DNA of 40,061 nt, taken from a candidate division Zixibacteria bacterium SM23_81 (GTDB lineage: Bacteria; SM23-81). Under the pieces are notes generated by a model, which saw only the letters and a program-made list of their open reading frames with translations, had not been told where the DNA came from and ran no database searches. Position 1 is the first letter of the stretch, and every line of letters starts with the position of its first letter. This document shows, one piece after another, positions 10,170 to 38,847 of this stretch. Position numbers and translations under genes: made by a program. Location: assembly GCA_001304015.1 (NCBI GenBank), contig LJUY01000006.1:86605-126665 (forward strand), written 5' to 3'.

Positions 10170-10922
10170 TTAAAGCCGCCTATAAATTCGCTTAGGAATC
10201 ACGTATTGCCGTCTGTTCAAAACCACGCCCAACACGGTTGCCTTAGAGTCACTGAGAGTACTCTGCGCTCTCCGAACTACCTCCCAACGCGTCTTTCCAG
10301 CCTGAACCACTAAGACGACTCCGTCCATCAGACGACTGAGGATGACGGCATCGACGTAATTCAGCACAGGGCAGGAGTCAAGCAAAACGTATGAATAATC
10401 CCGATTCCACGTCGTCAGAGCCTCCTTGAGATGAGGAGAGCTCAACAGCCGCGAGGGCTCCTCGGCGGGCTGTCCCGAGGTGACCACGAAGAGACCGCGG
10501 GAATCGGTTTGCTTGATCACCTCAGTTCCCGAGGCTGTCCCGGCAAGCAGTTCGACCAAGCCTCCCTTGCGTTCCAGACCGAAGATGTCGTGCAGCACAG
10601 GATTTCGCAGATTGGCGTCCACCAGCAACACGTTCTCCTGGCCGCCCTGGGTGAGGGCACGGGCAAACTGAGCGCAGACCGAGGACGACCCCTCGCCGCG
10701 AACGGAGCTGGTGATGAGAATTGCTTTGACTTTGAGGTCGGGATTCCTCAAATTGATGGCGCTGCACATCTTCTGGTATTCCTCGGCGACGGCCGGAGGT
10801 GCCAGTTTGTCCGCTACTGGGCGAACCGGAGACTCGACGGGAGATGGCTGAAGAGCACCATCGCCTCCAACAACGCCTCTTTCCTTCTCAGCCTTCTTCA
10901 GGGCTTCGTAGATCTTACTCAT
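10170..10922 (-). CDS. BY-kinase-like EPS regulator (CpsD/CapB family, XrtA-locus type) lacking Walker A lysine
   Basis: This 250-residue protein begins MSKIYEALKKAEKERG, the N-terminus typical of tyrosine autokinases in exosortase-associated EPS loci. The P-loop region reads TSSVRGEGSSSV (residues 71-82): the lysine of the usual GEGK[ST] is replaced by Ser79. Walker A' (VLLVDANLR, Asp102) and Walker B (VLLDSCPV, Asp182) are intact, as is the VVLVVQAGKTRWEVVRR segment. The tail has only two tyrosines (QYVIPKRIYRRL). The missing lysine makes ATP hydrolysis and autophosphorylation doubtful, though similar Ser/Thr/Ala variants occur in some relatives. Its start overlaps the ATPase stop by eight bases, and the Wzz-like partner lies one gene further upstream. 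Confidence 0.88.
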   Translation of the reverse strand: MSKIYEALKKAEKERGVVGGDGALQPSPVESPVRPVADKLAPPAVAEEYQKMCSAINLRNPDLKVKAILITSSVRGEGSSSVCAQFARALTQGGQENVLLVDANLRNPVLHDIFGLERKGGLVELLAGTASGTEVIKQTDSRGLFVVTSGQPAEEPSRLLSSPHLKEALTTWNRDYSYVLLDSCPVLNYVDAVILSRLMDGVVLVVQAGKTRWEVVRRAQSTLSDSKATVLGVVLNRRQYVIPKRIYRRL

Positions 10923-12459: not shown

Positions 12460-12476
12460 CGGGGCGTCCCTCGAAC

Positions 12477-13925
12477 CTAATCCTGCTTCATATCGGGAAT
12501 AGAGGCCAAAACAGGAAGGCCAAGATAGTGCTCCACATCCTCGCTGGTTCTCAAGGAGTGATCCAAATACTCCAGCGCGAAGGCCAACCCAAATCCCCCC
12601 ACGAGTCCTATGAGAAAGCCGCTGAAGATAAGCAGTTTCCTTTGGGGTTTGACAGGTTTGAGGGGCAAGGTGGCTGGGCTAATCACTGAGACATTGACGA
12701 TGCGGCGATCGCTGGCCTCAGAAATCCTGGCCTCTTCCCTCTTGAGCATCAACATGGAATAGACTTCTTTGTGATTCTCAATGGCCCTCTGCAGCTGTTC
12801 GATGGTCAGTTCCTTCTCCGGAAGGGCTCTTACCTGCTTATACAACATGGTGACGGTGGTGCGCAACGCGTCCTCTTCCGCGCGTAGTGCCTCCAAGGAA
12901 GACTCTTCCAGCTCGATCACTTTTTCCACCTCTATCCTCAGATCGGCCTCTCCCAGAGCGATTTCTCTCCTCAGCTGTAAGACCTCCCGATGATCCTCCG
13001 TATATTTCGTAAGAAGCTCGTTGAGGCGCAACCGAAGGTCAATGAATCGATCGTGGAGCTCGGAGATGATCTTTTCCTCTCTCATCTCCAGAGAGGGAAT
13101 CAGAGGTTGGAGGGGAGAAGACATGAAATCACGAATTTTGCTTAATTTCGTTTCCTTGCTGATGATGTCTTTTCGTACCTCCGTCAAGGAGGTCTCAAAC
13201 TCGTTAAGCTTCCTGAGGAGCATTTTCGACTGCTCGTCATAGGACAGCACCGCCTCTTGCTGCCGATAATTTCTCAACGCTGACTCCAGCTCATCCAGAT
13301 TGCGCTTGGCCAACTCGATCTGCTCATCGAAGAAATCAACCGCCCCCCTGGTCCGATAGATCATGGCCCGATAGTCGATATACGCCTCGGCTACGGTATT
13401 AGTCACTTCTATAGCCTGTTGGGGATCCTGAGAGCGATACCGGATCTGGATAACGTCAGACCTCTTGACGGGCTCGGCAATGACGCTCCTCCGTAGTGCC
13501 ATAATTTTCCTTAGACGGCTTTTTTCGGTATCCCCTTCCCCACCCTCGACACGAGAGGTGCTGTCCTGGGAAGTCTCTTGCGAGGCAGAAGGTTCTTGAG
13601 TCAAGGCTTTCTGATCAAGTCTATCCACCACTGCTTCTAGCACGGCTCGACTTGTAATTAACTCAATTTCGGAGTTAATAGCCTCCTCTAACTCTAATGC
13701 TCTCAATGAAGGAAGCCAGGGAGCCATCTTAAGCTCCGATTCACTCACTCCCCTGTTGATGAGAACTTTGGCAGAGGCCTCATAGACGGGCTTGGTTAGG
13801 AAAACCCCTATGGTAACCGTGGCTACTGTGGCAACTAAAACGAAGATGATCATCTTTTGCCGCTTGAAGACGACAAAGAGTATATCTCTTACTGATACGA
13901 TTTCGCCTGGCGTTTTCTCAGCCAT
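12477..13925 (-). CDS. Wzz-type polysaccharide co-polymerase / chain length determinant
   Basis: A 482-residue inner-membrane protein of the Wzz/GNVR class, which sets polymer length and works with a BY-kinase. It has a transmembrane helix at residues 22-42 (MIIFVLVATVATVTIGVFL), a large periplasmic part rich in coiled coil (about 190-390) and a C-terminal helix near 435 (LLIFSGFLIGLVGGFGLAF) preceded by the Pro-rich PATLPLKPVKPQRK. I use the ATG at 13925, with AGGAG eight bases upstream; a longer frame would start inside the Wza-like gene. There is no fused kinase domain; the kinase is the separate protein at 10170-10922. A low-complexity Ser/Glu stretch near residues 115-140 looks like a family-variable loop. 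Confidence 0.9.
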   Translation of the reverse strand: MAEKTPGEIVSVRDILFVVFKRQKMIIFVLVATVATVTIGVFLTKPVYEASAKVLINRGVSESELKMAPWLPSLRALELEEAINSEIELITSRAVLEAVVDRLDQKALTQEPSASQETSQDSTSRVEGGEGDTEKSRLRKIMALRRSVIAEPVKRSDVIQIRYRSQDPQQAIEVTNTVAEAYIDYRAMIYRTRGAVDFFDEQIELAKRNLDELESALRNYRQQEAVLSYDEQSKMLLRKLNEFETSLTEVRKDIISKETKLSKIRDFMSSPLQPLIPSLEMREEKIISELHDRFIDLRLRLNELLTKYTEDHREVLQLRREIALGEADLRIEVEKVIELEESSLEALRAEEDALRTTVTMLYKQVRALPEKELTIEQLQRAIENHKEVYSMLMLKREEARISEASDRRIVNVSVISPATLPLKPVKPQRKLLIFSGFLIGLVGGFGLAFALEYLDHSLRTSEDVEHYLGLPVLASIPDMKQD

Positions 13926-13947
13926 AGCCTTCTCTCCTAAAGATCCA

Positions 13948-14724
13948 TCACCAGCGCCCACGACGCTCGGGATGCAAAGTATCATACCCTTTCAGGTAAA
14001 AATCCATGGGGGGCATTAGCTTGGTAAAAAACTGGTCCAGAAACGTGTTCAACTGGGCGATAAAGGTATTGGGCACGTAGACGATCTCGTTGCCCTGCAA
14101 TAGGGAATCATCTCCTAATCTCCCCCCTGCCACAGCCCGGGTTAGGTTCACCCTGCTGGCCACTGGTACCCCCTGGGCGTTCTTTTTAATTAGGATAATG
14201 CTACTGAGTTTGGCCGTGTGCTTAAATCCAGAGGCCATGGAGATGGCCCCCAGGACAGTTGTCCCCTGGGGATTCAAGGGATATCCCCCGGGATCGGCCA
14301 CCTCCCCCAAAACGTAAACCACCTTCCCTCCAACTTCCCGGACGATGACCGTTACGTCAGGATCCCTGACGATCTCAGAATACTTCTCTGTAATTAACTG
14401 GTCCAGTTGCGTTGGGGTCATCCCAACTACAAGGACGTCGCCCAGGCGAGGTAGGGTAATTCGACCGTCTGGCCTGATGGTCAGGGTTTCGTTCAAGTTT
14501 TCATTATAAAAGAACTTCACATCGACCACGTCCCCGTATCCCATTCTGTATTCCGGAATAGAGTCCGGCTTGGCGGATGGCTTGGCGGCAAACACCTTCT
14601 CTTTCTCAAGGAGAGGCTCTTCCTCTGGAACAGGTGCGCGCCCGCGCAATCGCACGCAGGCAAGAAGCACAAGTGATACAATTAACAACCAGACGGCTGA
14701 AAACCTCGCTGCTCTGTGAAACAC
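13948..14724 (-). CDS. Wza-like polysaccharide export lipoprotein
   Basis: This 258-residue protein has a signal peptide ending in a good lipobox (LVLLAC, Cys22), then a Poly_export domain (YRMGYGDVVDVKFFYNENLN, residues 59-78, through TIRPDGRITLPRLGDV) and SLBB-type repeats (VYVLGEVADPGGYPLNPQG near 145). It fits the outer-membrane polysaccharide exporter family, forming the periplasmic/outer-membrane channel. At 258 residues it is shorter than E. coli Wza (about 380), as is usual for the exosortase-locus subfamily. The start is a GTG at 14724 with AAGGGG seven bases before it. Its stop overlaps nothing once the Wzz-like start is set at 13925, leaving a 22-base gap. Confidence 0.9.
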   Translation of the reverse strand: MFHRAARFSAVWLLIVSLVLLACVRLRGRAPVPEEEPLLEKEKVFAAKPSAKPDSIPEYRMGYGDVVDVKFFYNENLNETLTIRPDGRITLPRLGDVLVVGMTPTQLDQLITEKYSEIVRDPDVTVIVREVGGKVVYVLGEVADPGGYPLNPQGTTVLGAISMASGFKHTAKLSSIILIKKNAQGVPVASRVNLTRAVAGGRLGDDSLLQGNEIVYVPNTFIAQLNTFLDQFFTKLMPPMDFYLKGYDTLHPERRGRW

Positions 14725-14763: not shown

Positions 14764-15726
14764 TCAGACATCTTGCCGTTTTTGAAACCAATGAACAAAC
14801 AGCGGTATACCTTTCTCAATGGGCACCTTGGGGGCATATCCCAGGAGCTGGTGAGCTTTCTCTATGTGGGCACAGGTTTTGCGCACATCGCCGGGTTGTT
14901 CAGCGAGGTTCTTAATCTGAGCCCGACGAGACAAGCTCTGTTCGATGAGAGCGATCATTCGATGTAATGGCACAGACTGAGAGTCACCCAGATTGAAGAT
15001 CTCAAAATCGAAATCGGCCTCGAGAGCGGCTATGAGCCCGTCGACGATATCGTCAATGTATGTGTAGTCACGCTCCGAGCTGCCATCTCCGAAAACGGGC
15101 ACCTCCTGGCCCTCCCAGATCAACCGGGTGAACTTGTGAATGGCCATTTCTGGCCGTTGGCGAGGTCCATACACAGTAAAAAACCTCAAACATCCCACAG
15201 ACATGCCATACAGTTGGTGATACGCCCAAGCCAAGAGCTCTCCTGTTCTCTTGGTCACTGCATAGACCGATTGGGGTGTATCCACACGATCAGTTTCCCG
15301 CGAGGGAAAGGAATTGCCAGCTCCATAAACAGAGGAGGAGGAACCGAAGAGAAACTTGGGCACTCTGTATTGGCGCACCATCTCCAGGACGTTTAAGGTC
15401 CCCTGAATGTTCACTTTTTCGTAAAGATCAGGCACCTGAAGGGAGGGCCTCACCCCTGGTCTGGCCGCCAGATGAACCATGACTTCTACAGGATTCTGAG
15501 CCAATAGGCGCGATAGAAGGTCCTGATCTCTGATATCCCCTTCTACAAGCTTATAGTTCGGGGCTTTTAGAGCCTGGGTTACATTCTCCCGTTTGATCTG
15601 AGGATCATAGTAATCGTCGAAATTGTCCAGACAGATAACGGAAAAGCCTCTGTCCAGTAATCGCTCGGCGAGATGTGAGCCGATAAAACCCGCGCCGCCA
15701 GTGATAAAAACCCCTTGAAAACGCAT
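14764..15726 (-). CDS. UDP-glucuronate 4-epimerase-like SDR
   Basis: A 320-residue extended SDR with GGAGFIGS at 10-17 and the subgroup markers NFDDYYDPQIKREN (35-48) and FTVYGPRQRPEMAIHKF, which are typical of UDP-glucuronate 4-epimerases (CapI/LspL group). The catalytic Y155-x3-K159 pair (YAVTK) and the upstream SSSSVYG serine segment are present. It would convert UDP-GlcA to UDP-GalA in the cytoplasm, supplying an acidic sugar for the EPS. It is the first gene of the run 15726 to 10170, with 39 bases to the Wza-like gene. A sigma-54-like element lies about 105 bases upstream. The exact C4 specificity is inferred from the motifs. Confidence 0.85.
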   Translation of the reverse strand: MRFQGVFITGGAGFIGSHLAERLLDRGFSVICLDNFDDYYDPQIKRENVTQALKAPNYKLVEGDIRDQDLLSRLLAQNPVEVMVHLAARPGVRPSLQVPDLYEKVNIQGTLNVLEMVRQYRVPKFLFGSSSSVYGAGNSFPSRETDRVDTPQSVYAVTKRTGELLAWAYHQLYGMSVGCLRFFTVYGPRQRPEMAIHKFTRLIWEGQEVPVFGDGSSERDYTYIDDIVDGLIAALEADFDFEIFNLGDSQSVPLHRMIALIEQSLSRRAQIKNLAEQPGDVRKTCAHIEKAHQLLGYAPKVPIEKGIPLFVHWFQKRQDV

Positions 15727-15831: not shown

Positions 15832-15848
15832 AGCAAATTATATGCCGG
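15832..15848 (-). promoter_or_regulatory. Putative sigma-54 promoter for the EPS export operon
   Basis: On the minus strand it reads CCGGCATATAATTTGCT, with GG and GC exactly ten bases apart. Compared with TGGCAC-N5-TTGCW, the -12 element is perfect and the -24 element has CGGCAT. The expected start point lies about 95 bases before the epimerase ATG at 15726. Confidence 0.55.
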
Positions 15849-17096: not shown

Positions 17097-17189
17097 GGTC
17101 AACTCTCCGTTAAAGTTACTGTGCTTGAGACTAAATGACCTGCCAACTCTTTTGTGTGCAACACGCAGCTACAATCCCCCGGGGGTGCT

Positions 17190-22691: not shown

Positions 22692-22721
22692 AATATAACA
22701 TATTTGTCCTTCTATTGTCAA
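22692..22721 (-). promoter_or_regulatory. Sigma-70-type promoter for the C25 protease/PorV operon
   Basis: On the minus strand TTGACA (22721-22716) is followed after 18 bases by TATATT (22697-22692), in an AT-rich setting. The -35 is perfect and the -10 matches five of six positions. The start point would be near 22685. Confidence 0.6.
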
Positions 22722-22818
22722 GGTCAAATCTTCAATATTTGTTTATAAATCCAGCCAAATCCACACTATCGACTCCTTGCAGGAAGTGCAATTGACTCAG
22801 TGCCCCGCAAAACTCATG

Positions 22819-22850
22819 CCGAGAGATAAAAATTCTCCCGCATCTCTCGG
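22819..22850. terminator. Inverted repeat, possible terminator after the lipid module
   Basis: CCGAGAGAT and ATCTCTCGG form a perfect 9-base stem with a 14-base loop. It stands about 80 bases beyond the stop of the YdjM-like gene, where a transcript end is expected, but no clear T-run follows on the minus strand, so it may be an RNA-stabilising or regulatory hairpin. Confidence 0.45.
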
Positions 22851-27446: not shown

Positions 27447-28031
27447 TCAGTTGGAAGTTCGACTTCCCAGAACAGATGACCCACTATTCAGCGGAGAACT
27501 GGCCACCTGAAGGAGATCATCTTGGTCGCTCCCGTCTTCGGGAAAGGAGGCGATGCCGATATTTACGGCCTCCCCTTTTAGCAACTCGAGGTCTTCGGAC
27601 AGCGAAGTTTCCGCAATCTTTTCCCTCAACCTCTCCGCCAGGTGAAAAGCACCCTCCTTCGGCGTTTCGGTGAGGATTAAAGCCAGGCGATTTTTACCCA
27701 GGGAAGTCAGAATGTCCGTCGCTCGGACGGTGTCCTCGATGAGATGACCCATGCTTTTGAGCGCCTCAGCCCTTCTCCGAGAACTCTGATCCGCCAGTGC
27801 AGAGCTCACATCGATCAGCACCAAAGATAGAAACTCGCAGTAACGCTCCGCTCTGCGCAACTCCTGAGCGAACCTTTTCTCAAAGTAACCTTGTGAATAC
27901 ATATTGGTTACCTCGTCAAATTGGCTCCTCTGCTCTAGAAACGAGATGCGCCTTCTCAACGATTCGTTTTCCGACCTTAGCTTCCGGAGTTCTTCCTCAA
28001 ACTCCCGCTTATTGCTCCCAGACAATTCCAT
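27447..28031 (-). CDS. Degenerate GGDEF-domain protein
   Basis: A 194-residue protein: a charged coiled coil (about 5-38, EEELRKLRSENESLRRRI) and a GGDEF-like fold (FDEVTNMYSQGYFEKRFAQE onward). The signature GGDEF is replaced by GKNRL at 112-116, just before ALIL, and the upstream metal-binding segment (usually D-D-FK) is IDVSSALAD. A diguanylate cyclase needs both, so it should not make c-di-GMP; it may act as a binding or scaffold protein. No I-site RxxD is seen. The last 25 residues are Ser-rich. It has its own sigma-54 promoter 170 bases upstream and follows prsR, so it is probably a PrsR target tied to EPS control. The ATG has GAGGGG six bases upstream. Confidence 0.8.
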   Translation of the reverse strand: MELSGSNKREFEEELRKLRSENESLRRRISFLEQRSQFDEVTNMYSQGYFEKRFAQELRRAERYCEFLSLVLIDVSSALADQSSRRRAEALKSMGHLIEDTVRATDILTSLGKNRLALILTETPKEGAFHLAERLREKIAETSLSEDLELLKGEAVNIGIASFPEDGSDQDDLLQVASSPLNSGSSVLGSRTSN

Positions 28032-28435
28032 TGGTAACCCCTCATGTTAGGGCTATGGCACATCTCTATCCCAGGATAGTAACCGCCCCAATTATCGATG
28101 GACGGCTCGAGATCCAAAGATGTAGAAACCGCTTTCTTCGCTTCGCTGGGAGATTCTCCTCCAAGAAAACTCTGAGCCCAATCTTACTCTTAGTAAATTG
28201 GCAAACACTGTGCCAACTTCTTATAGATAAAGAGGTTTTTCTAGATACTTCTTTCTAAGGCTTGACCATGTAAAAACTAGCGAGCCGCACTTATTTGTCC
28301 GATCGCCTTGCGGCAATTGCACACTCCCATTCATGGAGCAAAAGTGTTTAAATAACCGACAGACGCTTCCTCAATTTGGGGTGAAATTCTTTGAAATAAA
28401 GCACTTAAGTTTGTACAAGAATCCGACAAGGAGGA
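28032..28435. other. Regulatory intergenic region between prsR and the GGDEF-like gene
   Basis: These 404 bases contain the sigma-54 promoter at 28200-28216, a leader of about 155 bases downstream of it, and about 220 bases upstream where activator sites would be expected. No gene and no clear terminator after prsR is seen. Confidence 0.6.
28200..28216 (-). promoter_or_regulatory. Sigma-54 promoter of the GGDEF-like gene
   Basis: On the minus strand it reads TTGGCACAGTGTTTGCC: a perfect TGGCAC, five bases, then TTGC, with ten bases between the invariant GG and GC. The expected start point is near 28189, about 158 bases before the ATG. The neighbouring PrsR is a sigma-54 activator. Confidence 0.8.
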
Positions 28436-29803
28436 TTATTTCATGTCTTCCTTGTCTATTTGGTGCTTTTCCAACAGATCGTACAGGGTGGCTCGGCTTA
28501 TCGCCAACTCCCGGGCTGCTCGAGAGATGTTTCCTCGATTTCTGATCAGAGCTTCCCGGATGAAGTTCCTTTCTAGCTTCTTCTTCGCCTGTCTGAGAGT
28601 TAATCTACCACCCTTCTCCAGCAATTGCAGATCCAAGTCCTCGGGGACCACCAGATTGCCTCTAGCCATGATGACAGCCCGTTTCACCCTGTTCTCCAGT
28701 TCTCGCACGTTACCCGGCCATTTGTAGGTCTGCAACTGCAGAAGAGCCTCTGTGCTATACCGCTTTAAGTTCTTGCCATACTCTTTGTTAAAATGGCTCA
28801 GGAAGGAATTTGCCAATAGCACGATATCCTCTCCTCGATCCCGCAAGGGAGGCAGGGAAATGGAAACCACACTCAGTCGGTAGTACAGATCTTCCCGGAA
28901 TGTATTCTTCTCCATTTCCTCCTGCAGATTTTTATTGGTGGCAGCGATGATTCGGACATCGAGCTCGATGGGCTCTCGCCCCCCTACTCGTTCGATCTCT
29001 CTTTCCTGCAAAAACCGCAGAATCTTCACCTGAAGGGCCAGGGTAAGTTCCGCGATCTCGTCCAGAAATAGGGTCCCTCCGTCGGCCAGTTCAAACTTGC
29101 CCTTCCTGCGTCCCACTGCTCCTGTAAAGGCACCTTTTTCATAGCCGAACAGCTCGCTTTCCAGCAAATTTTCAGGAATGGCACCACAATTAATTGGAGT
29201 GAAAGGCTTGTTTTTCCGCAAGCTTTGCCGATGAATCGCCCTGGCCATCACCTCCTTACCTGTGCCACTTTCACCATAGATTAATACGGTTGCGTTGGTG
29301 GTGGCCACCCGATCGACGATGTCAAAGACATTCAACATCTGAGGACAGTTGCCGATGATCCCGTGGAACTTTCGCTCCTCCTGTAATTTCTCCGTGAGGA
29401 GTTCATTCTCGCGCTCGAGCTTTCGTATGTAAATGGCTCGGTTAATGATGACCTTAATTTCTGGGAGATCGATGGGCTTGGTGAAGTAATCATAAGCCCC
29501 CATCTGAATGGCCTTCAGGGCCAGGTGCTTGGTTTCATTGCCCGTGATCATGATCACCTTGGACTTGGAATCCAGCTCCATAGTTTTGCGGAGCACCTCG
29601 AAACCCTCTTCGTCCTGTCCAATGGGGGAAAGGCTGATATCCAGAGCAACAACTTGGGGCTCCTGCTCTCGGATTATCTCCATGGCTCGAGCACCATCAC
29701 CGGCCGAGAGTACCTCGTAACTATCGTTTAGTGCCCACATCAACTGATCGCGGATTCCCTGGTCGTCATCAACGACAAGGATTTTATCTCTCGCTATTTT
29801 CAT
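28436..29803 (-). CDS. prsR: PrsR: NtrC-family response regulator, sigma-54 activator
   Basis: The 455-residue protein has a receiver domain (KILVVDDDQGIRDQLMWALN; phospho-acceptor Asp55 in VVALDISLS), a sigma-54 AAA+ domain (Walker A GESGTGKE near 178, GAFTGA loop near 222 in YEKGAFTGAVGRRKGKF) and a C-terminal Fis-type helix-turn-helix (about 405-450, GNISRAARELAISRATLYDL). The receiver wording, including QLMWAL, YEVLSAGD and the long loop after the Asp (SPIGQDEEGFEVL), is that of PrsR, the PEP-CTERM-box response regulator. It should activate sigma-54 promoters of EPS and surface genes when phosphorylated by PrsK. Its ATG overlaps the prsK stop by four bases. Confidence 0.92.
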   Translation of the reverse strand: MKIARDKILVVDDDQGIRDQLMWALNDSYEVLSAGDGARAMEIIREQEPQVVALDISLSPIGQDEEGFEVLRKTMELDSKSKVIMITGNETKHLALKAIQMGAYDYFTKPIDLPEIKVIINRAIYIRKLERENELLTEKLQEERKFHGIIGNCPQMLNVFDIVDRVATTNATVLIYGESGTGKEVMARAIHRQSLRKNKPFTPINCGAIPENLLESELFGYEKGAFTGAVGRRKGKFELADGGTLFLDEIAELTLALQVKILRFLQEREIERVGGREPIELDVRIIAATNKNLQEEMEKNTFREDLYYRLSVVSISLPPLRDRGEDIVLLANSFLSHFNKEYGKNLKRYSTEALLQLQTYKWPGNVRELENRVKRAVIMARGNLVVPEDLDLQLLEKGGRLTLRQAKKKLERNFIREALIRNRGNISRAARELAISRATLYDLLEKHQIDKEDMK

Positions 29804-31962
29804 CCCCCCCCATCTTGAGACCCGCCAGTGGAATTAGGGTGATTGACCGGCAGCCGAATCAGGAAAATGGTACCCTGGCCTTCTTTGCTTCTGACCTCGA
29901 TATGGCCTCCATGAGCCTCCACAGCCTCTTTGCACTGGTAAAGACCGATGCCCAATCCTTTCTCTTTGGTGGTCTGAAACGGTCTGAAAAGTTTGTGCTT
30001 CACAAAACTATCGCCCATACCAGTGCCCGTATCGGCCACTTCAACTTCAACAAACTGCAAAGTTTCACCGGCAGTTGGCAGAGATCCATCTTTCCAAAGC
30101 TTGGTTGATACCCGCAGAGTACCCTCTTTGCCCATGGCCTCTAGGGCGTTGACGATGAGGTTCCTCAGAATTCGTTCGGCATAATCCCGGTCGACGTTGA
30201 CCAGAGGCAGAGGGTGAAGGTCTTCTATATACTGAATGCCCGCCATCTGGCTTCCCCTGATCTTAGAGATAACCCCTCGAACGATGTTGTTGAAATCCTG
30301 AGGTTGAGGGTTCAACTGGAGATCTTTGGGCATGGTGGTCATCCGGTTCATCAAACCCTTCATTTTCTCCACAGTCCCGGCGATGGTGGTCAGCATGCTC
30401 TCTCGAAACTCGGGTTTCTCCATTTTGGTTCCGGCGTTCTGAAGCAGCATGGACAAGGAGGAAACCAGATTCTTCAGATCGTGAACCACAAAGGAAGAGA
30501 TCTTGTTTATGAACTCCCACTCCTTGGAGAGGACTAACTCTTCGCTCAGCTTGAGGTTCAGGATAGCCACGGAGAGATGATTGCCAATCGCTTCCAGAAG
30601 CTCCAAGTCCACGCTGGAAAGAAGATCTCCAGATTTCCTCGGGCCCAGTACCAAAAGCCCTACCAGTTTCCTCTTAGTAATCAATGGCACCACCACAGTG
30701 AAACCCAGGCTTCTTAAGCGGTCACGCTGGGATTGAACTTCAGACACTGGGCTTTCGCTAAACCGACTGTCCTCTAGGGTAATAGGCTGGCTCAGGATAA
30801 ACAGCCAGTCCAAAAACTCGCTCTTTTCAGAAATCCGAAAGTCCTTGGTAGGCACGTTTTGGGCCTCGGCTAGCAAGAAATCTCCTTGAGTATCCCATTG
30901 TAATAGAACAGCAGCGCTGCACACGTTCAGAGTGTCCATCACCATATGCAGGAATCCAGGGAGAAAATCCTCCAGACTTAATAAGCTGGCTAGCTCCTCG
31001 CTAAACCGAAGCCACTGTTCCCGATAGTCGTATCGGCCTTTGTAAAAATTTCTGTCGATAAAAACCCTGAGTCTCCTCTTTAGCGAGCCTGAGACCAACA
31101 AGACCAAGAGCAGAATGAGCATCACGAAAGCCGCCAGGATGGTGAGGAATAGATTCAAATTGCCGCCGATAACCTTAACGAGTTTTCCCACCACTCCGAC
31201 GAGAATTAAATATGCCCCCACAAGAAGCAAGATCGCCGATGAGTAAACGGCTCCCCTACCGACGTAAATTTCCACCTGAAACAGGCCATAGCGCACGATG
31301 TCGTAGGCTATGAACAACCCTGCCAGAGTGATGACCGCCGAGCCCACGAGCAGGGCCGCTGAAGGAATCCGAGAATATAGCAGACCCTGACTACATAAGA
31401 AGATAGCATAGACAAGCCCGCCCATGAGACCGTAGAGGGTATGGCGCCCTTCCTTCTGACGAGCATTCCGGTAAGTATTCTCCAAGACAATGAGCATGGC
31501 CACCACAGAGAGCAGGAGATAGATGAGAAACCAGCGACCTAATGTCCCGAAGCGAATGGCTTGGAGAAAGGGCGGCTGGGCATCCGCAGGGATATAGACC
31601 AAACGGTCTGTGGGCAGGAAGGCCATAAAGCTGACTCCCACCACGAGAAGGAGGAGCAAATATCTCAAACCTTTTCGTATAATGGTCTCGGGATTGGGTT
31701 GCATCAAAAGGAGGCTGATCAGCAACCAGGTAAGGGGCAAGAAAGAAACCCCCACTAAAGAGAACTTGTACCAAAACAGCACTCGACTCTGCACGGAGCT
31801 TGCCAGACACACCAAGTAGCCGAGTGTGATGATGATGATGCATAGGAGGCCGCATCCAAAAGCCCGGCTGATTGGGGACTTGGGATTTTTCCTCATGACC
31901 AGTACCGAGAGGAGGATGGCCATCATGATATTGGTCATGGGTATAAGGAGGAAAGGATTCAT
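29800..31962 (-). CDS. prsK: PrsK: membrane histidine kinase with GAF domain
   Basis: A 720-residue sensor kinase. About eight N-terminal helices (1-280) form the PrsK-type membrane sensor (MNPFLLIPMTNIMMAILLSV, then repeated hydrophobic stretches). A GAF domain follows (about 315-460, ending VVPLITKRKLVGLLVLGPRK). The phospho-acceptor is His494 in FVVHDLKNLVSSLSML, a HisKA-like box of the form HDLKN, and the ATPase domain runs from about 590 to 705 (NLIVNALEAM, DTGTGMG, GLGIGLYQCKEAVEAHGG). It phosphorylates PrsR. Start and stop overlap its neighbours by four bases each (ATGA junctions), so TPR protein, PrsK and PrsR are translationally coupled. The signal sensed is unknown. Confidence 0.92.
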   Translation of the reverse strand: MNPFLLIPMTNIMMAILLSVLVMRKNPKSPISRAFGCGLLCIIIITLGYLVCLASSVQSRVLFWYKFSLVGVSFLPLTWLLISLLLMQPNPETIIRKGLRYLLLLLVVGVSFMAFLPTDRLVYIPADAQPPFLQAIRFGTLGRWFLIYLLLSVVAMLIVLENTYRNARQKEGRHTLYGLMGGLVYAIFLCSQGLLYSRIPSAALLVGSAVITLAGLFIAYDIVRYGLFQVEIYVGRGAVYSSAILLLVGAYLILVGVVGKLVKVIGGNLNLFLTILAAFVMLILLLVLLVSGSLKRRLRVFIDRNFYKGRYDYREQWLRFSEELASLLSLEDFLPGFLHMVMDTLNVCSAAVLLQWDTQGDFLLAEAQNVPTKDFRISEKSEFLDWLFILSQPITLEDSRFSESPVSEVQSQRDRLRSLGFTVVVPLITKRKLVGLLVLGPRKSGDLLSSVDLELLEAIGNHLSVAILNLKLSEELVLSKEWEFINKISSFVVHDLKNLVSSLSMLLQNAGTKMEKPEFRESMLTTIAGTVEKMKGLMNRMTTMPKDLQLNPQPQDFNNIVRGVISKIRGSQMAGIQYIEDLHPLPLVNVDRDYAERILRNLIVNALEAMGKEGTLRVSTKLWKDGSLPTAGETLQFVEVEVADTGTGMGDSFVKHKLFRPFQTTKEKGLGIGLYQCKEAVEAHGGHIEVRSKEGQGTIFLIRLPVNHPNSTGGSQDGGG

Positions 31963-33467
31963 TTCGTCCTCTGTCTCAGTCTCTCCATCCGTTCAAGGGC
32001 AATCTGGGCCAGCTGGCTGCGGGGAGATTTCTCAACCAGCCTCCTATAGGCTTTAAGAGCTTCATCGGGGTATTCCAGATGGGTCTCGTACATTTCTCCA
32101 ATCCGCAATAGGGAAAACAACACCTGTGGGCTCAGAGGGTGGTTCTCCACCAGGACTTCCAAAGCGGCAATGGCATCTTCCCATTGCTCCATCATTTCAT
32201 GACACTGGGCGATATACCATTGCCCGTAAGCCGCTTGAGGAGAATCAGGATTTCTCGCTATAAACCTATCATAGTCTCTTAAGGCCTGAGAGTAAGCGCT
32301 GGTGGCTAACTCGCGATCTGAAAACTTTATATAGTGATCCAAAATATGATGGGGCACTTGGAGGGCTTCAGGGGAATTTGGGTAGTTTTCCATAATCCAC
32401 CGAAACTCGTTTAGGGCCCTATCCCATTCTCCCTCCACTTCGTAAGTGAGGGCAAGGTAGTACTGAGCGCGGGCACCGATAGCCGCCTGCTCAGGAAAGT
32501 CGGAAATAACCCCCTTGAATTCCTCCCGAGACATGGCCAGCTCCCCCCGCTGCAAGTGGATTTTGCCCATGCCCAGGTGCACCCGGCTTAGTTTCCTGGC
32601 ATCGGGATACCTCTCAAGCATATCGGTATAGATCTTCATGGCCTGAGCCGGGTCGTTGAGTTTTTCCTGGTAGAGCTCAGCCATGGTAAAGGAAGCCTCT
32701 GGAGGCTCTGTGCTATCCCCATGCGCCACCAGTGGCGCCAAGGCGGTTATGGCTTCGCGCCAGTGCTCTTGGCTCAGATAGCTGGACACAATCTGATTTT
32801 GGGCAAATTGGGCCGAGAGGGTATTGGGCCACTCCTGCACCACTCCTGAGAGATATTCCCGGGCTTTCTGAAAATGCCGGTCAGCCTCGGCTTTTTCTCG
32901 CTGTTCCCGATAGACCTGAGCGATGTAGACGGGCACTCGTAAAATATTCACATCGGGCTGATTGGGCGTCCCTGTGAAAGGGGGGTAGTTGTGCAGCAAA
33001 ATATGGAAGGCAGAAACGGCATGTCCCCATTTCCCAATTTTCTGGTAGCTTAAGCCAATATAGTACTGCGCCCTAGAGCTTAACACCTGCTCAGCAGCAT
33101 AATCGCGAACCACACCTTGATACTCAACTATGGCGGAGTCAAATTGCCCTTCCTGGAAAAAGAGATCGGCGACATTCATCTGGCTGGTCCCCGTTAAAGC
33201 CAACAGCTCGCCACGCAGCTTTTCTGATCTGTGCCCTTCGGTTCTCAGAGAGGCAACCGGGTATCTAACCAATATGTGCCGAAAAGACTCTCTGGCCTGT
33301 CTATAATCCGAAGGCCCAGCACCGCGTGGATTCACCTGTATGTTCTGGTACAGTTTATTGGCTCGATAAAACATCCTCTCGGCGAGATATCGATCTTTTA
33401 TCCCCTTCACGTCAGAACAATGCGCAAATAGAAAAAGCAACAACACAAAGGACAGAGGTCTTCCCAT
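31959..33467 (-). CDS. Exported TPR-repeat protein coupled to PrsK
   Basis: A 502-residue protein from the ATG at 33467 (MGRPLSFVLLLFLFAHCSDV). The N-terminus is a signal peptide followed by Cys; the lipobox (FAHC) is atypical, so lipid attachment is possible but not certain. The rest is a chain of tetratricopeptide-like helices, e.g. FDSAIVEYQGVVRDY, HWREAITALAPLVA, DPAQAMKIYTDMLERYPDA, EWDRALNEFRWIMENYPNS and QWEDAIAALEVLVENHPLS, similar to BamD/YbgF-type periplasmic scaffolds. It overlaps prsK by four bases. TPR proteins are known partners in exosortase/EPS loci. Likely a periplasmic adaptor; a role in signalling to PrsK is inference from the coupling. Confidence 0.8.
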   Translation of the reverse strand: MGRPLSFVLLLFLFAHCSDVKGIKDRYLAERMFYRANKLYQNIQVNPRGAGPSDYRQARESFRHILVRYPVASLRTEGHRSEKLRGELLALTGTSQMNVADLFFQEGQFDSAIVEYQGVVRDYAAEQVLSSRAQYYIGLSYQKIGKWGHAVSAFHILLHNYPPFTGTPNQPDVNILRVPVYIAQVYREQREKAEADRHFQKAREYLSGVVQEWPNTLSAQFAQNQIVSSYLSQEHWREAITALAPLVAHGDSTEPPEASFTMAELYQEKLNDPAQAMKIYTDMLERYPDARKLSRVHLGMGKIHLQRGELAMSREEFKGVISDFPEQAAIGARAQYYLALTYEVEGEWDRALNEFRWIMENYPNSPEALQVPHHILDHYIKFSDRELATSAYSQALRDYDRFIARNPDSPQAAYGQWYIAQCHEMMEQWEDAIAALEVLVENHPLSPQVLFSLLRIGEMYETHLEYPDEALKAYRRLVEKSPRSQLAQIALERMERLRQRTK

Positions 33468-33645
33468 TCTCAGATCGCATTGTATTTTATCGATAAGATA
33501 ATCCAAAAACACAGCAAAGACCCATTTATATTTGGGCAATAAAAAAAGGATTTGCATTCCCGGATTGATCAATCTCACGGGCTACCACATTCTACTTCCA
33601 TTTCCTCGGTGAAGGGAGACTCCTCTCGAGGGCCAAAGGCCAATG

Positions 33646-34488
33646 CTATGGGGTGCCTTCTGCAACACCCAAATAGAGTGCGGTGAGGGCGCCTACAATC
33701 ACGAAGTTGACCAGCAAGGTGACTACTACTCCCAAACCTAGGAGAAAAACGACGATTTCAGGGCTGAATTTGGCAACCATCAGGGGAGCTCTCCCAGCTG
33801 CGACATCCACAATCCAGGAGAAGAAAGCTGGTATGGCGATGATCAGAAAAGTGACCCCGAAATTGCTCTTGGCCAGTGAAAAACTTCCTGTTAGAGCAGT
33901 CCAAATGTTTCGCTTTCCCAATACCACCTGAGGCGTGGTGAAGGCAAATGGAGTCATGATCACGACGTTGCAAAGGAAACCCGCAAGCCTTAGAAGCCGA
34001 TGTGAATGAGCCCCCCACATTAAAATCTCTGGAGCCATAAATCGAAAGAGCCGGGTCATAAGAAACACCAGCGACCATTCCACCGCCCCAAGGACGAAAA
34101 GGGGCAGCATGCATCGCAAGGCCTGGTAAAAGCTTCTCCTCGCTTGAACCGTCTCGCTGCGATACTTCGCGGCGAACATGAGGGTGGCAGTCCCGATGAC
34201 CAACCAGCTGACCAGCAGGCTCAACCAGCGGTTGGCCCCAAAGAAGAGCGTGGGCAAAACGACGAAGTTATGTGGATAGTGAAGGGCCGGCTCGCCATAA
34301 AGGCGCTCCATCAAAGGAACCAGCACTTGCGAAAACGGAGGGACAAAAAACAGGATGAGAGCGGTGAGGATAACGCTTTGCAGAAGGGTAAAAAGGAAAA
34401 ACGGCAAAAAAATTGAGATCTTCTTCGCAGATCTCAGGCTCTGGATCCAGGTCCAAATGAGGATGTTGATCCTCTCGACGACGCGCAT
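33646..34488 (-). CDS. Integral membrane protein of unknown function
   Basis: I do not recognise this family. The 280-residue protein has about six long hydrophobic helices (e.g. FLPFFLFTLLQSVILTALIL, LSLLVSWLVIGTATLMFAAK, FGVTFLIIAIPAFFSWIVDV, VVFLLGLGVVVTLLVNFVIV), short loops and no cysteine or metal pattern. The general layout resembles the DUF4013/YIP1-like membrane proteins that often have a TALTGSFSLAKSN-type loop before the last helices. The ATG at 34488 has a GGAGG five bases upstream and is preferred to the GTG at 34506. It lies 178 bases before the TPR gene and 34 after the hypothetical protein. Confidence 0.75.
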   Translation of the reverse strand: MRVVERINILIWTWIQSLRSAKKISIFLPFFLFTLLQSVILTALILFFVPPFSQVLVPLMERLYGEPALHYPHNFVVLPTLFFGANRWLSLLVSWLVIGTATLMFAAKYRSETVQARRSFYQALRCMLPLFVLGAVEWSLVFLMTRLFRFMAPEILMWGAHSHRLLRLAGFLCNVVIMTPFAFTTPQVVLGKRNIWTALTGSFSLAKSNFGVTFLIIAIPAFFSWIVDVAAGRAPLMVAKFSPEIVVFLLGLGVVVTLLVNFVIVGALTALYLGVAEGTP

Positions 34489-34522
34489 GGCATCCTCCGG
34501 GCCCACTGTATCCAGAAAGGCC

Positions 34523-35188
34523 CTATTCTCCCTGTCCCACTTCCATTTTCCCTACATACCGATTAAGCGCCTTCAGGGTGGCGAAAATCACGCTTCTTTT
34601 CAAGTCGCTTCCAATAATAGCGCTACCAGTAATCCTGATCTCCTCCCGAGGCTTCAGCAGACTGAGGATCGTTACGATGACCTCCTCCTGTCCCAGAGGA
34701 ACGACCTTCAAATCCTCCAGTACCGGGGATTGGTCAGGAGGCAGAAATTTCTCGACGGCTCTTAAAGCGGCTTCGGCAACCAACCTCATCTGGTTCTGCG
34801 TGGAGCTTGGGCCCGATGCCACCCCAGTGGATACAACTCCGTCCCTCTCAATCTCCACCTGTGCTTCAGCTGCCACACCGGTTACGGTTAGATTGATGCC
34901 GCGAAATTTCAATCGAGCAGTGGGTCTCTCTTGTGGGGGCTTGCCTGACTTCCGCATTTGTGCTACGCTGACTCGTTTGTGGTCGATGCGTATTCCCAGC
35001 TGCGTGGCCAGCATCGATTCGATGTCCCTCACTATCTGTTTCGGCATTCTTTCGGCATCCCCTAGAATATGGATTTCCTCAATTTCTCCTTCTTTGGTGA
35101 GGGAAACGTAAGCGGACAGGACGCCTTTCACCTGATGTATGAGTTCCTCGATGTGCTCTCGATCGCTTTGCGTTCTCGCGTCCTGCAC
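34523..35188 (-). CDS. Conserved hypothetical protein, two related alpha/beta halves
   Basis: A 221-residue soluble protein. It has an N-terminal part (EELIHQVKGVLSAYVSLTKE, IEEIHILGDAERMPKQIVRD, MLATQLGIRIDHKRVSVAQM) and a C-terminal part (VTGVAAEAQVEIERDGVV, RLVAEAALRAVEKFLPPDQ, LEDLKVVPLGQEEVIVTILS, ALNRYVGKM). A Lys-Pro-rich hinge lies near 83-92. I recall the same layout in conserved hypothetical proteins of thermophilic firmicutes and chloroflexi, but no function is assigned there. No signal or membrane helix is seen. The GTG start has AGGAG eight bases upstream. The gene lies between an FN3 lipoprotein and a membrane protein, all in one direction with short gaps. Confidence 0.75.
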   Translation of the reverse strand: MQDARTQSDREHIEELIHQVKGVLSAYVSLTKEGEIEEIHILGDAERMPKQIVRDIESMLATQLGIRIDHKRVSVAQMRKSGKPPQERPTARLKFRGINLTVTGVAAEAQVEIERDGVVSTGVASGPSSTQNQMRLVAEAALRAVEKFLPPDQSPVLEDLKVVPLGQEEVIVTILSLLKPREEIRITGSAIIGSDLKRSVIFATLKALNRYVGKMEVGQGE

Positions 35189-35219
35189 AGCTCATGCTCC
35201 TGGAAAAGGAACTATTCGC

Positions 35220-36521
35220 TCACGGGCCTGATGGAGTGATCGCGTCCACTTCGTTACTACCTGCACATAGAGATCCTTGGTCATAGACGAAGATGCTGTA
35301 GAAATAATGAGTGGATAAATCGAGGCGAGAATCGGTGAGCGATGTGGTTTGAATATCGTTGAAAAGCTCGATGGGATTCGAGGAAATATCAACAGGGGAG
35401 GATAAGTCCCGATACACGATGTAATGGTCGAAGTCCGCCTCCTGGCTGCGAGTCCATTTCAGTTCAATTTGCGCCGTGGTTGAATCATCGGGAGAAAGCT
35501 GGACCGAGGCGATGACAAGAGTCACTGGCTCAGGCGCCTTCTGAATTGTCAACGTCTTCACAGAGGTCCTTTCCTCAGAATTATTTCCTGCTTCGTCCCG
35601 AAATCGAGCCTTCACAGAAGCCTCGATGACCTCAAGCCCACTGGGGACCACAAAGTTCAGCTCATAGGTGCCATCCTCGACGAACTGGTCACCATGAGTG
35701 CCATCATCGAAGAGCTGCATCCCCGTCACGACGTTGCCGATGTCGATCTCAGCCCGACCCTGCGTCTCGCCCGTCTCAACGGAAAAGTGAATGAGATCCC
35801 CTGGCGAGAGCACTGTATCTGTTGGGGAAAAGACGAGAGCGTTGATGCTGGCCCGTGTGTCCAAGAGAATGGAATCCCAATGAAAACCAGAGGTCTCGTT
35901 ATCGTCCAAATCCCTGACTTTCAAATAAACCCATTTCTGTCCATCCACAGATGTCAGATGCCAGCTTTTATTCGGTGCGAAAGGCTCCCAAGAGGCTTCT
36001 GTAAACAGAGAATCGTTGGCCAACAACATATACCTGGCTCCTTCGGGTGCGGATACATTCAGGGTAACCGAGGTGGATGTGGTGTACTTGTCACCATCAT
36101 TAATTGCAATGGTGAAGCCATTGGGAGTAGCGGCAATCTCTTGAGAGTACTGTCCTATAAAGCCATGGTTGACGACCACACAGACACGGTATCGATAGGT
36201 GCGACCGTTTCTCAATCCACGATCCACATAGCTCTTGGTGGTGGTGGAATCGATGATGGCGAAATCGCCATCAATAGAGTCTTTACGAGCAATACGATAC
36301 CACTTGACGACGGTCGTATCGCTAAGTTCCCAGCTCAAATGGACGGTCCTATCCCCCACTCCGATAGATAGATTGTGGGGAACAGGAGGCCAGGAGGCCT
36401 GGCCTGAATCCAATGGGTTTAGATAGATCACCGGCCCATGATCTTTTTCACAATTGCTGAAGAACAACAGAGCCACACCAAATGTGATCAGAAGTGCCCC
36501 TCGCCCCACCGCCTTTTTCAT
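35220..36521 (-). CDS. Secreted FN3-domain (lipo)protein
   Basis: A 433-residue exported protein from ATG 36521, which has a perfect GGAGGTGA just upstream. The signal peptide ends LLFFSNC; Cys at the end of the hydrophobic run suggests lipid attachment, though Asn before Cys is atypical. Mature part: FN3 domain near 50-135 (PVPHNLSIGVGDRTVHLSWE, YRYRVCVVVNHG), a middle Ig-like/bridge region (TSVTLNVSAPEGARYMLLAN), a segment like CHU_C/choice-of-anchor layers (DTVLSPGDLIHFSVE, FDDGTHGDQFVEDGTYEL) and a second FN3 near 335-430 (IELKWTRSQEADFDHYIVYR). It probably faces the surface or periplasm and binds another component; no enzyme motif is present. Confidence 0.8.
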   Translation of the reverse strand: MKKAVGRGALLITFGVALLFFSNCEKDHGPVIYLNPLDSGQASWPPVPHNLSIGVGDRTVHLSWELSDTTVVKWYRIARKDSIDGDFAIIDSTTTKSYVDRGLRNGRTYRYRVCVVVNHGFIGQYSQEIAATPNGFTIAINDGDKYTTSTSVTLNVSAPEGARYMLLANDSLFTEASWEPFAPNKSWHLTSVDGQKWVYLKVRDLDDNETSGFHWDSILLDTRASINALVFSPTDTVLSPGDLIHFSVETGETQGRAEIDIGNVVTGMQLFDDGTHGDQFVEDGTYELNFVVPSGLEVIEASVKARFRDEAGNNSEERTSVKTLTIQKAPEPVTLVIASVQLSPDDSTTAQIELKWTRSQEADFDHYIVYRDLSSPVDISSNPIELFNDIQTTSLTDSRLDLSTHYFYSIFVYDQGSLCAGSNEVDAITPSGP

Positions 36522-36548
36522 GGTCACCTCCGTGCCAACCTCATAACT

Positions 36549-37295
36549 TTAGAAGCGTTGGGTAAGCAGAAGTTTGGTTTGACCTTGGTGTACCTGCCCT
36601 GTAATGAGTGGAGTGGCCCGCTCGTAAATATCCTCCTTGTATCGGGGAAAAAAGAAAACCGCTTCCAGCACGTTGTAGGCCCAGAGAACGGCCGTCGCCA
36701 CGGTAAAGGCGGTCCTTATTTCAAAGGCTTCATCAGCCTCACGAGCTGCCTTTTCCATCTCCCTACGAAGCCGAGGGATGTCATCGACAACCCTGGCTCG
36801 GCGGTATTGGGAGAGCGCCTGTTCATAATCGTCCTTCGCGTCCTCATAGTTCTTGTATGCGTCAACAGTGGCAAGGATAGATGTCGTGTTAAGGATCCCT
36901 AAAATTACTCCTTTTGTTTTCCTGTTGGAGTAAAATTGACCCCAGCCAGGAAATAATAAAGAGCGCCATGCTGCTTTGAATCGCGATTTGGAAACGAGCT
37001 TGATGTACAGACTATTTTGCCGATCTCCCACCAAAGTGACCTTGGTAGACCAAGTTTCGTAGCCCCGCTTCAAGGCCTTAACCTTATAGGTACCCACCAA
37101 ACCGAAGGGCAACTGACAAGGGGTATGACCCACGAAGTCATAATCGCCCTCTATATAAACCAAGGCTCCCGAAGGTTTCGAGTATAGTGAAAAAGCGCCG
37201 CCTGAGGGTGTAACCGCGCCCTCCTCTTGTGCCAAAGCCATGGACGCGAATACGACGACGCTCATCGTCATCAGGATACAAAACGCTTTGCTCAT
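36549..37295 (-). CDS. PEGA-domain plus DUF5683-like membrane protein
   Basis: A 248-residue protein. A signal peptide (MSKAFCILMTMSVVVFASMA, cut after ALA) leads to a PEGA domain, residues about 35-100 (FSLYSKPSGALVYIEGD, ALKRGYETWSTKVTL), a carbohydrate-binding-like fold of surface proteins. Then comes the DUF5683 signature (RSLLFPGWGQFYSNRKTKG), a hydrophobic helix (VILGILNTTSILATVDAY), a charged coiled coil and another helix near 200. It looks like an envelope-anchored scaffold. GGAGG lies nine bases before the chosen ATG; two upstream in-frame starts (37313, 37304) are possible. The stop is 27 bases before the FN3 lipoprotein start, so the two are probably cotranscribed from a promoter near 37414-37440. 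Confidence 0.8.
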   Translation of the reverse strand: MSKAFCILMTMSVVVFASMALAQEEGAVTPSGGAFSLYSKPSGALVYIEGDYDFVGHTPCQLPFGLVGTYKVKALKRGYETWSTKVTLVGDRQNSLYIKLVSKSRFKAAWRSLLFPGWGQFYSNRKTKGVILGILNTTSILATVDAYKNYEDAKDDYEQALSQYRRARVVDDIPRLRREMEKAAREADEAFEIRTAFTVATAVLWAYNVLEAVFFFPRYKEDIYERATPLITGQVHQGQTKLLLTQRF

Positions 37296-37413
37296 GGACA
37301 CCATTCCCTCCACTCGCAGCTACCAGTTTTATTCATCCTAAAGTTGCATCCCTCAAGGCAGAGTCCTGAACATTCCCCCCATACTTAGACTTACTTCGAC
37401 TTACTTCAATCAA

Positions 37414-37440
37414 GTTATCATCTTTTCTTGACATTGTCAA
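37414..37440 (-). promoter_or_regulatory. Possible sigma-70-type promoter of the PEGA operon
   Basis: On the minus strand TTGACA (37440-37435) is followed by GATAAC (37419-37414) at 15 bases or TAACTT at 17. The -35 is perfect, the -10 is weak. TTGACA is also half of a palindrome (TTGACAATGTCAA), which could be an operator. Confidence 0.35.
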
Positions 37441-37508
37441 GGGAATAATTCTGCTGCGCTCTGGGAGGAAATGAAGCCAATAGCAAGATAGCTCACCGTT
37501 TCTGGTTC

Positions 37509-38501
37509 TTAATAGATCCCCTTTCTGCAAATGACAACCACAATGGTCTTGAGCAGTATCTTCAAATCGTGGCCCAAGGATTTGCTATCTACATATTTTA
37601 AATCATAATCCAGTTTGGAATAGACATCCTCCATGCAGGTATCATAGCCGCCCATCACCTGAGCCAAACCAGTCAATCCGGGTTTTACCTTCAATCTCTC
37701 TTCGTATCGAGAGATGGTGCCCACGAATTGGTCAACAAAATAGGGTCGCTCGGGCCGAGGCCCAACCAGGCTCATGTCACCTTTGAGAACATTGAACAGC
37801 TGCGGTAGCTCATCTGCCCGGATGGCCCTGAGTAGTTTACCCACTTTGGTGATTCGTGGATCATTCCTCTTGGCCCAGACCGGCCCGCTTTTCTTCTCGG
37901 CATCCTCTCGCATGGAACGAAACTTATAGACGACGAAAAGTCGCCCGTAGGCGTTCTTCTTCCGTCTATCCCCATTCCTTCGATCCCCGTTTAGCCTGTA
38001 AGAATTTCTGCGGCGGTCGCCATTACGCCTTTCTTGACCAACTCGCATCTGTTTGAATAGCACACTGCCAGGGGAATCGAGCTTAACTAATATGGGCACC
38101 AGCAAGAAAAAAGGTGAAGTGAGAATGAGCCCTAGGATGGCACCGATGATGTCGACGCCCCTCCTCATAGCCTCACCACAACGGCTCCTCAAATCGATGG
38201 AACAGGTGCCCTTGAGAACTGAATCGGGAACGAGGAAGAAGACTATCAGGGAAGAGATCAGGAAGGAAGGAGAGAGAATTAATCGGCCGAAAAAAGTTTT
38301 TACGCCGACCAATGTCCTTCCCATGGGGTGCCGGTTCTCTTTCCACGTTGGATGCTGCCCCAAGGGCAGAAATGTCCTCCCAGGACAAGAGGATCCTTTA
38401 ACCGCGTGGCCAGTTTTAGTCTCGGGCACATTTAGGACTTTGATATCGTTTTGGGAAGTAAACGGGCTTTGATACCTTTCCCTGACTGAGGTTTTTTTCA
38501 T
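37509..38501 (-). CDS. Polyprenyl-phosphate sugar phosphotransferase (WcaJ/PglC-type)
   Basis: A 330-residue enzyme that starts glycan synthesis by moving a sugar-1-phosphate from a UDP-sugar to undecaprenyl phosphate. The catalytic part (about 115-330) shows the re-entrant membrane helix (GVDIIGAILGLILTSPFFLL), SPGSVLFKQMRVG, VYKFRSMREDAEK, DELPQLFNVLKGDMSLVGPR and KPGLTGLAQV. Two oddities: an Arg-rich insert of about 30 residues with three NGDRR copies between RVGQ and YGRLF, and a polar N-terminal extension of about 70 residues in place of the usual four-helix part. I start at ATG 38501, because a sigma-54 element at 38574-38590 puts the transcript start near 38563, too close for the GTG at 38552. 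The ribosome site is weak. Confidence 0.88.
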   Translation of the reverse strand: MKKTSVRERYQSPFTSQNDIKVLNVPETKTGHAVKGSSCPGRTFLPLGQHPTWKENRHPMGRTLVGVKTFFGRLILSPSFLISSLIVFFLVPDSVLKGTCSIDLRSRCGEAMRRGVDIIGAILGLILTSPFFLLVPILVKLDSPGSVLFKQMRVGQERRNGDRRRNSYRLNGDRRNGDRRKKNAYGRLFVVYKFRSMREDAEKKSGPVWAKRNDPRITKVGKLLRAIRADELPQLFNVLKGDMSLVGPRPERPYFVDQFVGTISRYEERLKVKPGLTGLAQVMGGYDTCMEDVYSKLDYDLKYVDSKSLGHDLKILLKTIVVVICRKGIY

Positions 38502-38573
38502 GTTCCACGCTTTATACTTCAAGTCTCCGACCCCCTTTAAAGTGGAGACCACGCTATAACTGTATTTTTTTAG

Positions 38574-38590
38574 TGCAAAGTCTATGCCAA
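38574..38590 (-). promoter_or_regulatory. Sigma-54 promoter of the sugar transferase gene
   Basis: On the minus strand TTGGCATAGACTTTGCA: -24 TGGCAT, five bases, -12 TTGCA, GG and GC ten bases apart. The start point would be near 38563, about 60 bases before the ATG at 38501. Confidence 0.75.
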
Positions 38591-38770: not shown

Positions 38771-38847
38771 CATATATCCTGCTTAATGTTGCACCGTACT
38801 GACTCGAATGCCGACACCTCCAGGTGAATCGGATGGAAGATTGAGGG

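Follow-up and report, generated by a model that had tools for sequence, protein, structure and literature searches.

The genes of PEP-CTERM proteins have been connected with sigma-54 (-24/-12) promoters in earlier work. In Haft 2006 (PMC1569441), a 17-nucleotide (nt) motif ending in TTTACA is followed, after a spacer of 62.8 nt on average, by a -24/-12 element. In Aquincola tertiaricarbonis, the start of pepA was mapped to a -24/-12 element and was found to depend on RpoN1 (PMC9850573). In D. vulgaris, a DNA-affinity-purified-chip (DAP-chip) experiment showed binding to five predicted PEP-CTERM targets by a regulator whose predicted role is the control of such genes (PMC3333781). PelD and BcsE illustrate that degenerate GGDEF domains can serve polysaccharide synthesis as receptors of cyclic di-GMP (c-di-GMP) (PMC8461298). 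The stretch analyzed here, referred to as the window, comprises 40,061 nt of the candidate division Zixibacteria bacterium SM23_81 (contig LJUY01000006.1, positions 86,605 to 126,665) and contains prsK, prsR, a degenerate GGDEF gene and exopolysaccharide (EPS) genes. An earlier note on this DNA had placed priming, export and the GGDEF gene in one PrsR regulon. Judged from the sequence, we favor another reading, with a probability of about 0.7: several sigma-54 promoters would answer to at least two activators, PrsR driving the GGDEF receptor-like gene and PEP-CTERM cargo, and another activator driving the unit that runs from a sugar transferase gene to prsR.

Predicted PrsR boxes and the GGDEF gene

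Statements on the whole SM23_81 genome (G000, a draft with a completeness of 92.6% and a contamination of 4%) are based on searches for patterns and families. The genomes used for comparison were G001 from the same family, G002 and G003 from the same phylum, and G045, a distant genome that has PrsR. A de novo motif search upstream of ten PEP-CTERM -24/-12 sites and two GGDEF sites returned the 17-mer TGTCGG-N6-TnACA, which matches "motif 1" of Haft 2006 (PMC1569441) in its length and at its end. When the matrix was built without the SM23_81 genome, just two strong sites were found in the 40 kb, at 28428..28412 and 28361..28345. A matrix derived from G045 only ranked the same pair first and second in the window (20.7 and 19.9 bits), followed by a site of 13.3 bits, and with this matrix shuffled windows gave 0.185 matches above 15 bits each. 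The strength of the two boxes ranged from 19.4 to 20.7 bits. They lie 67 bp apart, and a tandem spacing of 63–69 bp recurs in G000, G001, G002 and G045. Since the two boxes are the top sites and are conserved in G001, PrsR can be tied to the GGDEF gene. The search for a box followed by a -24/-12 element was made first at gaps of 50–110 nt and missed the GGDEF promoter, because its box spacing is 129 nt; it was then widened to 110–170 nt. The spacing in G000 (129–141 nt) is longer than the 32–92 nt of Haft 2006 (PMC1569441). The sequence TTTACA at 28274..28269 had been considered as a box and was dropped once the tandem 17-mers emerged from the motif search. Separately, a block common to G000 and G001, TCTCCCnGCGAAGCGAAGAAAG, is conserved in the leader of the GGDEF gene (about 28128-28157, minus strand).

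The box can be checked independently of the window in three places, namely G045, a Vibrio gene and the D. vulgaris DAP-chip targets mentioned above. Promoters with a box and a -24/-12 element numbered 12 in G045 at 50–110 nt and 17 at 110–170 nt, with 0 in the control at either gap. Among the first 12, at least five precede PEP-CTERM genes, as counted by reading C-terminal tails. The Vibrio PEP-CTERM gene, located near an annotated prsR, has TGTCGATATATTTTACA 72 nt ahead of its -24/-12 element. No convincing box promoter was found in the Alteromonas and Nitratidesulfovibrio plasmid stretches. In G000–G003 taken together, a -24/-12 element precedes 11 of the 12 PEP-CTERM genes. This count includes both genes of G000 whose products score above the cut-off, on C70 and C23, of which the C23 gene has a 17-nt box and then the -24/-12 element. 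In G002 and G003, prsR and the GGDEF gene are followed by PEP-CTERM genes, every one of which has a separate -24/-12 element. The predicted link of PrsR to the GGDEF gene and to PEP-CTERM cargo elsewhere is well supported.

The GGDEF protein itself is probably unable to make c-di-GMP. In an alignment to 6d9m, its GKNRL falls on the GGDEF of active diguanylate cyclases, and RxxD lies five residues ahead of that position (RATD-ILTSL-GKNRL). The active site is lost and RxxD retained in all four orthologs (G000–G003). A GAF domain, which in PelD stands ahead of the GGDEF together with transmembrane helices, was not found by Pfam, which gives GGDEF and a sub-threshold Cnn_1N match only. The probable role of the protein is that of a c-di-GMP receptor serving the EPS machinery.

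Predicted sigma-54 promoters and the other transcription units

The -24/-12 elements that the earlier note had placed at three positions are present: GG-N10-GC was found at all three, on the minus strand, intergenic and with good flanking consensus, as required of a sigma-54 promoter. The 28200 site, previously called perfect, has one mismatch to the consensus used for such counts (TGGCAYN5TTGCW), as does the 15832 site; the perfect match is the one at 38574. The three sites are the top three matches of the window to an approximate sigma-54 matrix (17.6, 16.5 and 14.7 bits), and in Markov-shuffled windows 0.47 matches are expected at 14.6 bits or more against the 3 seen in 40 kb (P ~0.003). 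With 3 mismatches allowed, the bare consensus does no better than chance in the window (56 seen vs. 51 expected). Genome-wide, the pattern with at most one mismatch gave 227 matches vs. 102 in a reversed control (about 2.2-fold), so that roughly half of such matches would be genuine, and 14 of the 18 exact matches lie outside long reading frames. The window is not enriched, with four matches of at most one mismatch vs. 3 expected from the genome average. The three sites are credible as predicted sigma-54 promoters. A fourth site, missed by the earlier note, was found at 22806..22821 upstream of a PorU-like gene.

The machinery for such promoters is in place, as the genome has a single, intact rpoN with the RpoN box ARRTVAKYRE. 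The identities of PrsK and PrsR were borne out, both scoring above the cut-offs of their curated models. The genes adjoin each other and overlap by 4 nt. TIGR02915 and TIGR02916 are above cut-off in G000, G001, G002 and G045, and TIGR02915 is also above cut-off in G095. A PrsT could not be assigned at the locus, where the tetratricopeptide repeat (TPR) protein reaches 43.7 bits vs. a TIGR02917 cut-off of 312, the rest of the genome not having been searched. PrsR is the only sigma-54 activator in the window, as had been said; the genome holds 11 full bacterial enhancer-binding proteins (bEBPs) of this kind, so its being alone in the window is weak evidence. Near a perfect -24/-12 element preceding a polysaccharide export protein (L013, L039; G000:C77), there is a second sigma-54 activator, and this locus is another EPS/sigma-54 unit of the same genome.

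From the sugar transferase to prsR, all genes run in the same direction with short gaps, except for 195 nt after the sugar transferase. This gap has no terminator-like site on the minus strand and no -24/-12 element. The common direction and the empty gap suggest that the unit as a whole, prsK and prsR included, is probably transcribed from the 38574 promoter. G001 and G002 share the order sugar transferase - PEGA - fn3 - unknown - TPR - prsK - prsR, and so does G003, where it is spread over two contigs. In G000, G002 and G003 alike, the sugar transferase site has no strong PrsR box at distances of up to 350 nt, nor was one found near the epimerase or PorU-like promoters of the window. Strong boxes thus occur at the GGDEF promoter only, and the single regulon put forward earlier is not supported. 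The link from PrsR to sigma-54 is supported for the GGDEF promoter and not for the sugar transferase and epimerase units. When the three units were compared, no upstream motif common to them was found, a result that the earlier note had itself named as refuting its proposal. A motif common to the promoters of the sugar transferase, PorU, epimerase and C70 genes was also sought and discarded, as non-orthologous sets scored barely above shuffles. The export operon is probably under an activator other than PrsR. Its counterpart in G001 is cut short, the contig ending inside the epimerase gene, and the first half of this gene was not found elsewhere in G001.

Components of a type IX secretion system (T9SS), one PorV-like and one PorU-like with a FlgD/Por tail, lie within the EPS/XrtA-type cluster (window 16053-22472). 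The PorU-like gene has a leader of 330 nt (22472-22805, minus strand, and L103:13008-13400) with conserved blocks around GGTTCGCTAACGGGTTCGG and ACAATCGACATCC. It has no conserved reading frame and no riboswitch or known RNA by Rfam, and is possibly a structured leader.

Table 1. Features of the window that bear on sigma-54 and PrsR control (amino acids, aa).
Feature	Coordinates	Strand	Details
Degenerate GGDEF protein, 194 aa	27447..28031	-	TIGR00254/PF00990 matches; GKNRL replaces GGDEF; RATD I-site kept
Predicted -24/-12 promoter, degenerate-GGDEF gene	28200..28215	-	TGGCACAGTGTTTGCC, 16.5 bits; G001 counterpart TGGCATAGAGTTTGCC, same place
PrsR box 1 (predicted), promoter-proximal	28345..28361	-	TGTCGGTTATTTAAACA; 129 nt upstream of -24/-12; 19.9 bits; kept in G001
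PrsR box 2 (predicted), distal	28412..28428	-	TGTCGGATTCTTGTACA; 196 nt upstream of -24/-12; 20.7 bits; kept in G001
PrsR response regulator/sigma-54 activator	28436..29803	-	TIGR02915 586.8 bits, cut-off 502.6; GAFTGA present
PrsK histidine kinase	29800..31962	-	TIGR02916 410.7 bits, cut-off 300
TPR protein, PrsT position	31959..33578	-	weak TIGR02917 match
Four envelope-type genes (unknown, unknown, fn3, PEGA), sugar transferase to prsT-like gene	33646..37313	-	order kept in G001, mostly in G002/G003
Bacterial sugar transferase (priming), first gene of prsK-prsR unit	37509..38552	-	PF02397 204 bits; TIGR03025/TIGR03013-like
Predicted -24/-12 promoter, sugar transferase unit	38574..38589	-	TGGCATAGACTTTGCA; G002 TGGCATAGACCTTGCA, G003 TGGCATATACCTTGCT
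Weak PrsR-box-like sequence, doubtful	38800..38816	-	TGTCGGCATTCGAGTCA; 210 nt upstream of sugar transferase promoter
Export unit: tyrosine autokinase, XrtA-type ATPase, chain-length determinant, export protein	10170..14724	-	TIGR01007, TIGR03015 above cut-off; TIGR03007/TIGR03027-like
NAD-dependent sugar epimerase, first gene of export unit	14764..15726	-	
-24/-12-like site before epimerase/export operon	15832..15847	-	CGGCATATAATTTGCT, 14.7 bits
T9SS PorU-like sortase, 1760 aa	17190..22472	-	NF033707 387.9 bits vs. cut-off 420
Fourth -24/-12 site, upstream of PorU-like gene	22806..22821	-	CGGCATGAGTTTTGCG; G001 CGGCATGGGTTTTGCT, conserved block

Proposed mechanism and alternative explanations

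In the mechanism that we propose, PrsR probably receives a phosphate from PrsK, by analogy with other PrsK/PrsR systems. PrsR would then bind the two tandem 17-bp boxes located immediately behind prsR and, together with sigma-54 polymerase at 28215..28200, would switch on the GGDEF gene; it would also switch on PEP-CTERM cargo elsewhere in the genome. Another activator acting at the sigma-54 promoter 38589..38574 would place PrsR below it in a cascade. A two-tier version, in which this activator works perhaps via a TTATGCA-N6-TGCATAA palindrome on the operon from the sugar transferase to prsR, and PrsR in turn on the dead GGDEF receptor and PEP-CTERM cargo, is offered tentatively, at rather less than even odds. 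If it is true, transcription through PrsR and c-di-GMP signaling would converge on one protein.

Several observations weigh against the reading with at least two activators. The matrices for the box and for sigma-54 are small and approximate, and the latter was drawn from the consensus. In G002 and G003, the stretch that separates prsR from the GGDEF gene gave no -24/-12 element, so the GGDEF promoter is conserved just within the family, and box scores in these two genomes are modest with the G045-only matrix (6.7–13.8). One of the two PEP-CTERM genes of G000, on C70, has a perfect -24/-12 element and no PrsR box. An exosortase was not found in the 92.6% complete draft of G000 and is present in G001 and G002. 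G095 has a TIGR02915 PrsR (558 bits; L108), yet no excess of box promoters was found there. Moreover, the weak look-alike TGTCGGCATTCGAGTCA upstream of the sugar transferase promoter scored 8.7 bits with the matrix excluding its own genome (shuffle p 0.04) and 11.6 bits with the G045-only matrix. NtrC-type enhancers are able to work over long distances. A missing near box therefore does not fully exclude PrsR. On a separate point, the box in G095 may differ.

The first alternative is that another, putative bEBP binds palindromes resembling TTATGCA-N6-TGCATAA at the promoters of the sugar transferase and of some PEP-CTERM genes, with PrsR below it. Both G002 and G003 have an exact copy of the palindrome at the sugar transferase promoter, and the form TGCA-N6-TGCA precedes orthologous PEP-CTERM genes in G000 (C70, L113) and G001 (C278, L115) that have good -24/-12 elements and no PrsR box. 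In combination with a -24/-12 element, the palindrome gave four matches in G000–G002 and 0 in the control. However, the G000 and G001 matches, two of the four, are orthologous, and TGCA-N6-TGCA was found nowhere in the window, including before its own sugar transferase and epimerase. The palindrome is therefore a lead only, and we regard this alternative as unlikely. As a separate observation, the pattern at C70 and C278 suggests an activator switch between relatives.

The second alternative, which we find similarly doubtful, takes the 15832 and 22806 sites as chance or minor matches and leaves promoters only at 38574 and 28200. About half of the one-mismatch matches genome-wide are expected by chance, and the 15832 site, with C at position 1, comes after a GC-rich stretch that looks terminator-like by eye. 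Against this, the 22806 site lies in a conserved block common to G001, and the 15832 site is intergenic and the third best in the window.

Direct activation by PrsR of the sugar transferase, epimerase/export and GGDEF units as one regulon, with weak or distant sites serving the sugar transferase and epimerase/export units, is improbable: all three have credible sigma-54 sites, prsK and prsR follow the sugar transferase in a gene order that recurs in G001 and G002, the look-alike (not found in G002 and G003) ranks fourth in the window, and a D. vulgaris regulator of PEP-CTERM genes is also assigned EPS/biofilm operons in a table of PMC4641369, but neither the sugar transferase site (up to 350 nt away) nor the epimerase has a strong box, G002 and G003 share the palindrome at the sugar transferase instead, and the genome has ten other full bEBPs.

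Comparison with known systems

The reading with at least two activators provides a concrete PrsR box for a lineage that previously had only a gene name, and suggests that the PEP-CTERM box extends beyond the Proteobacteria, from which it was first described. Control by PrsR of both a c-di-GMP-receptor-like protein and exported cargo suggests a link between two layers of EPS control. The cluster also calls for caution in pairing sigma-54 promoters with the nearest activator, as three promoters in one cluster have no common enhancer motif.

The closest likeness is to the PEP-CTERM/PrsK-PrsR/sigma-54 system of Haft 2006 (PMC1569441), with which the locus shares PrsK and PrsR by curated models, a 17-nt box with a -24/-12 element, a box that is sometimes doubled, PEP-CTERM targets and a linkage to EPS genes. 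Unlike in Haft 2006, where the box was reported from Proteobacteria only, it is found here in a lineage with only three same-phylum relatives among the genomes searched. The degenerate GGDEF gene directly behind prsR would be a target here, the PrsT counterpart is below the cut-off and the exosortase is missing from the draft, in which the locus also departs from that account. The RpoN1/PEP-CTERM floc system of A. tertiaricarbonis likewise has a sugar transferase (epsB2 there), prsK and prsR adjacent to one another; the promoter tested there was that of a PEP-CTERM gene and not of a GGDEF gene, and dependence on PrsR was not shown in that study (PMC9850573). Finally, the GGDEF protein differs from PelD and BcsE in that it has 194 aa and gives no match to GAF, and in that neither Pel nor Bcs genes were identified beside its gene. 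It resembles them in having a GGDEF fold without an active site, encoded with EPS genes, and keeps RxxD as in PelD (PMC8461298). By this analogy, it may work like PelD and BcsE without being a member of either group.

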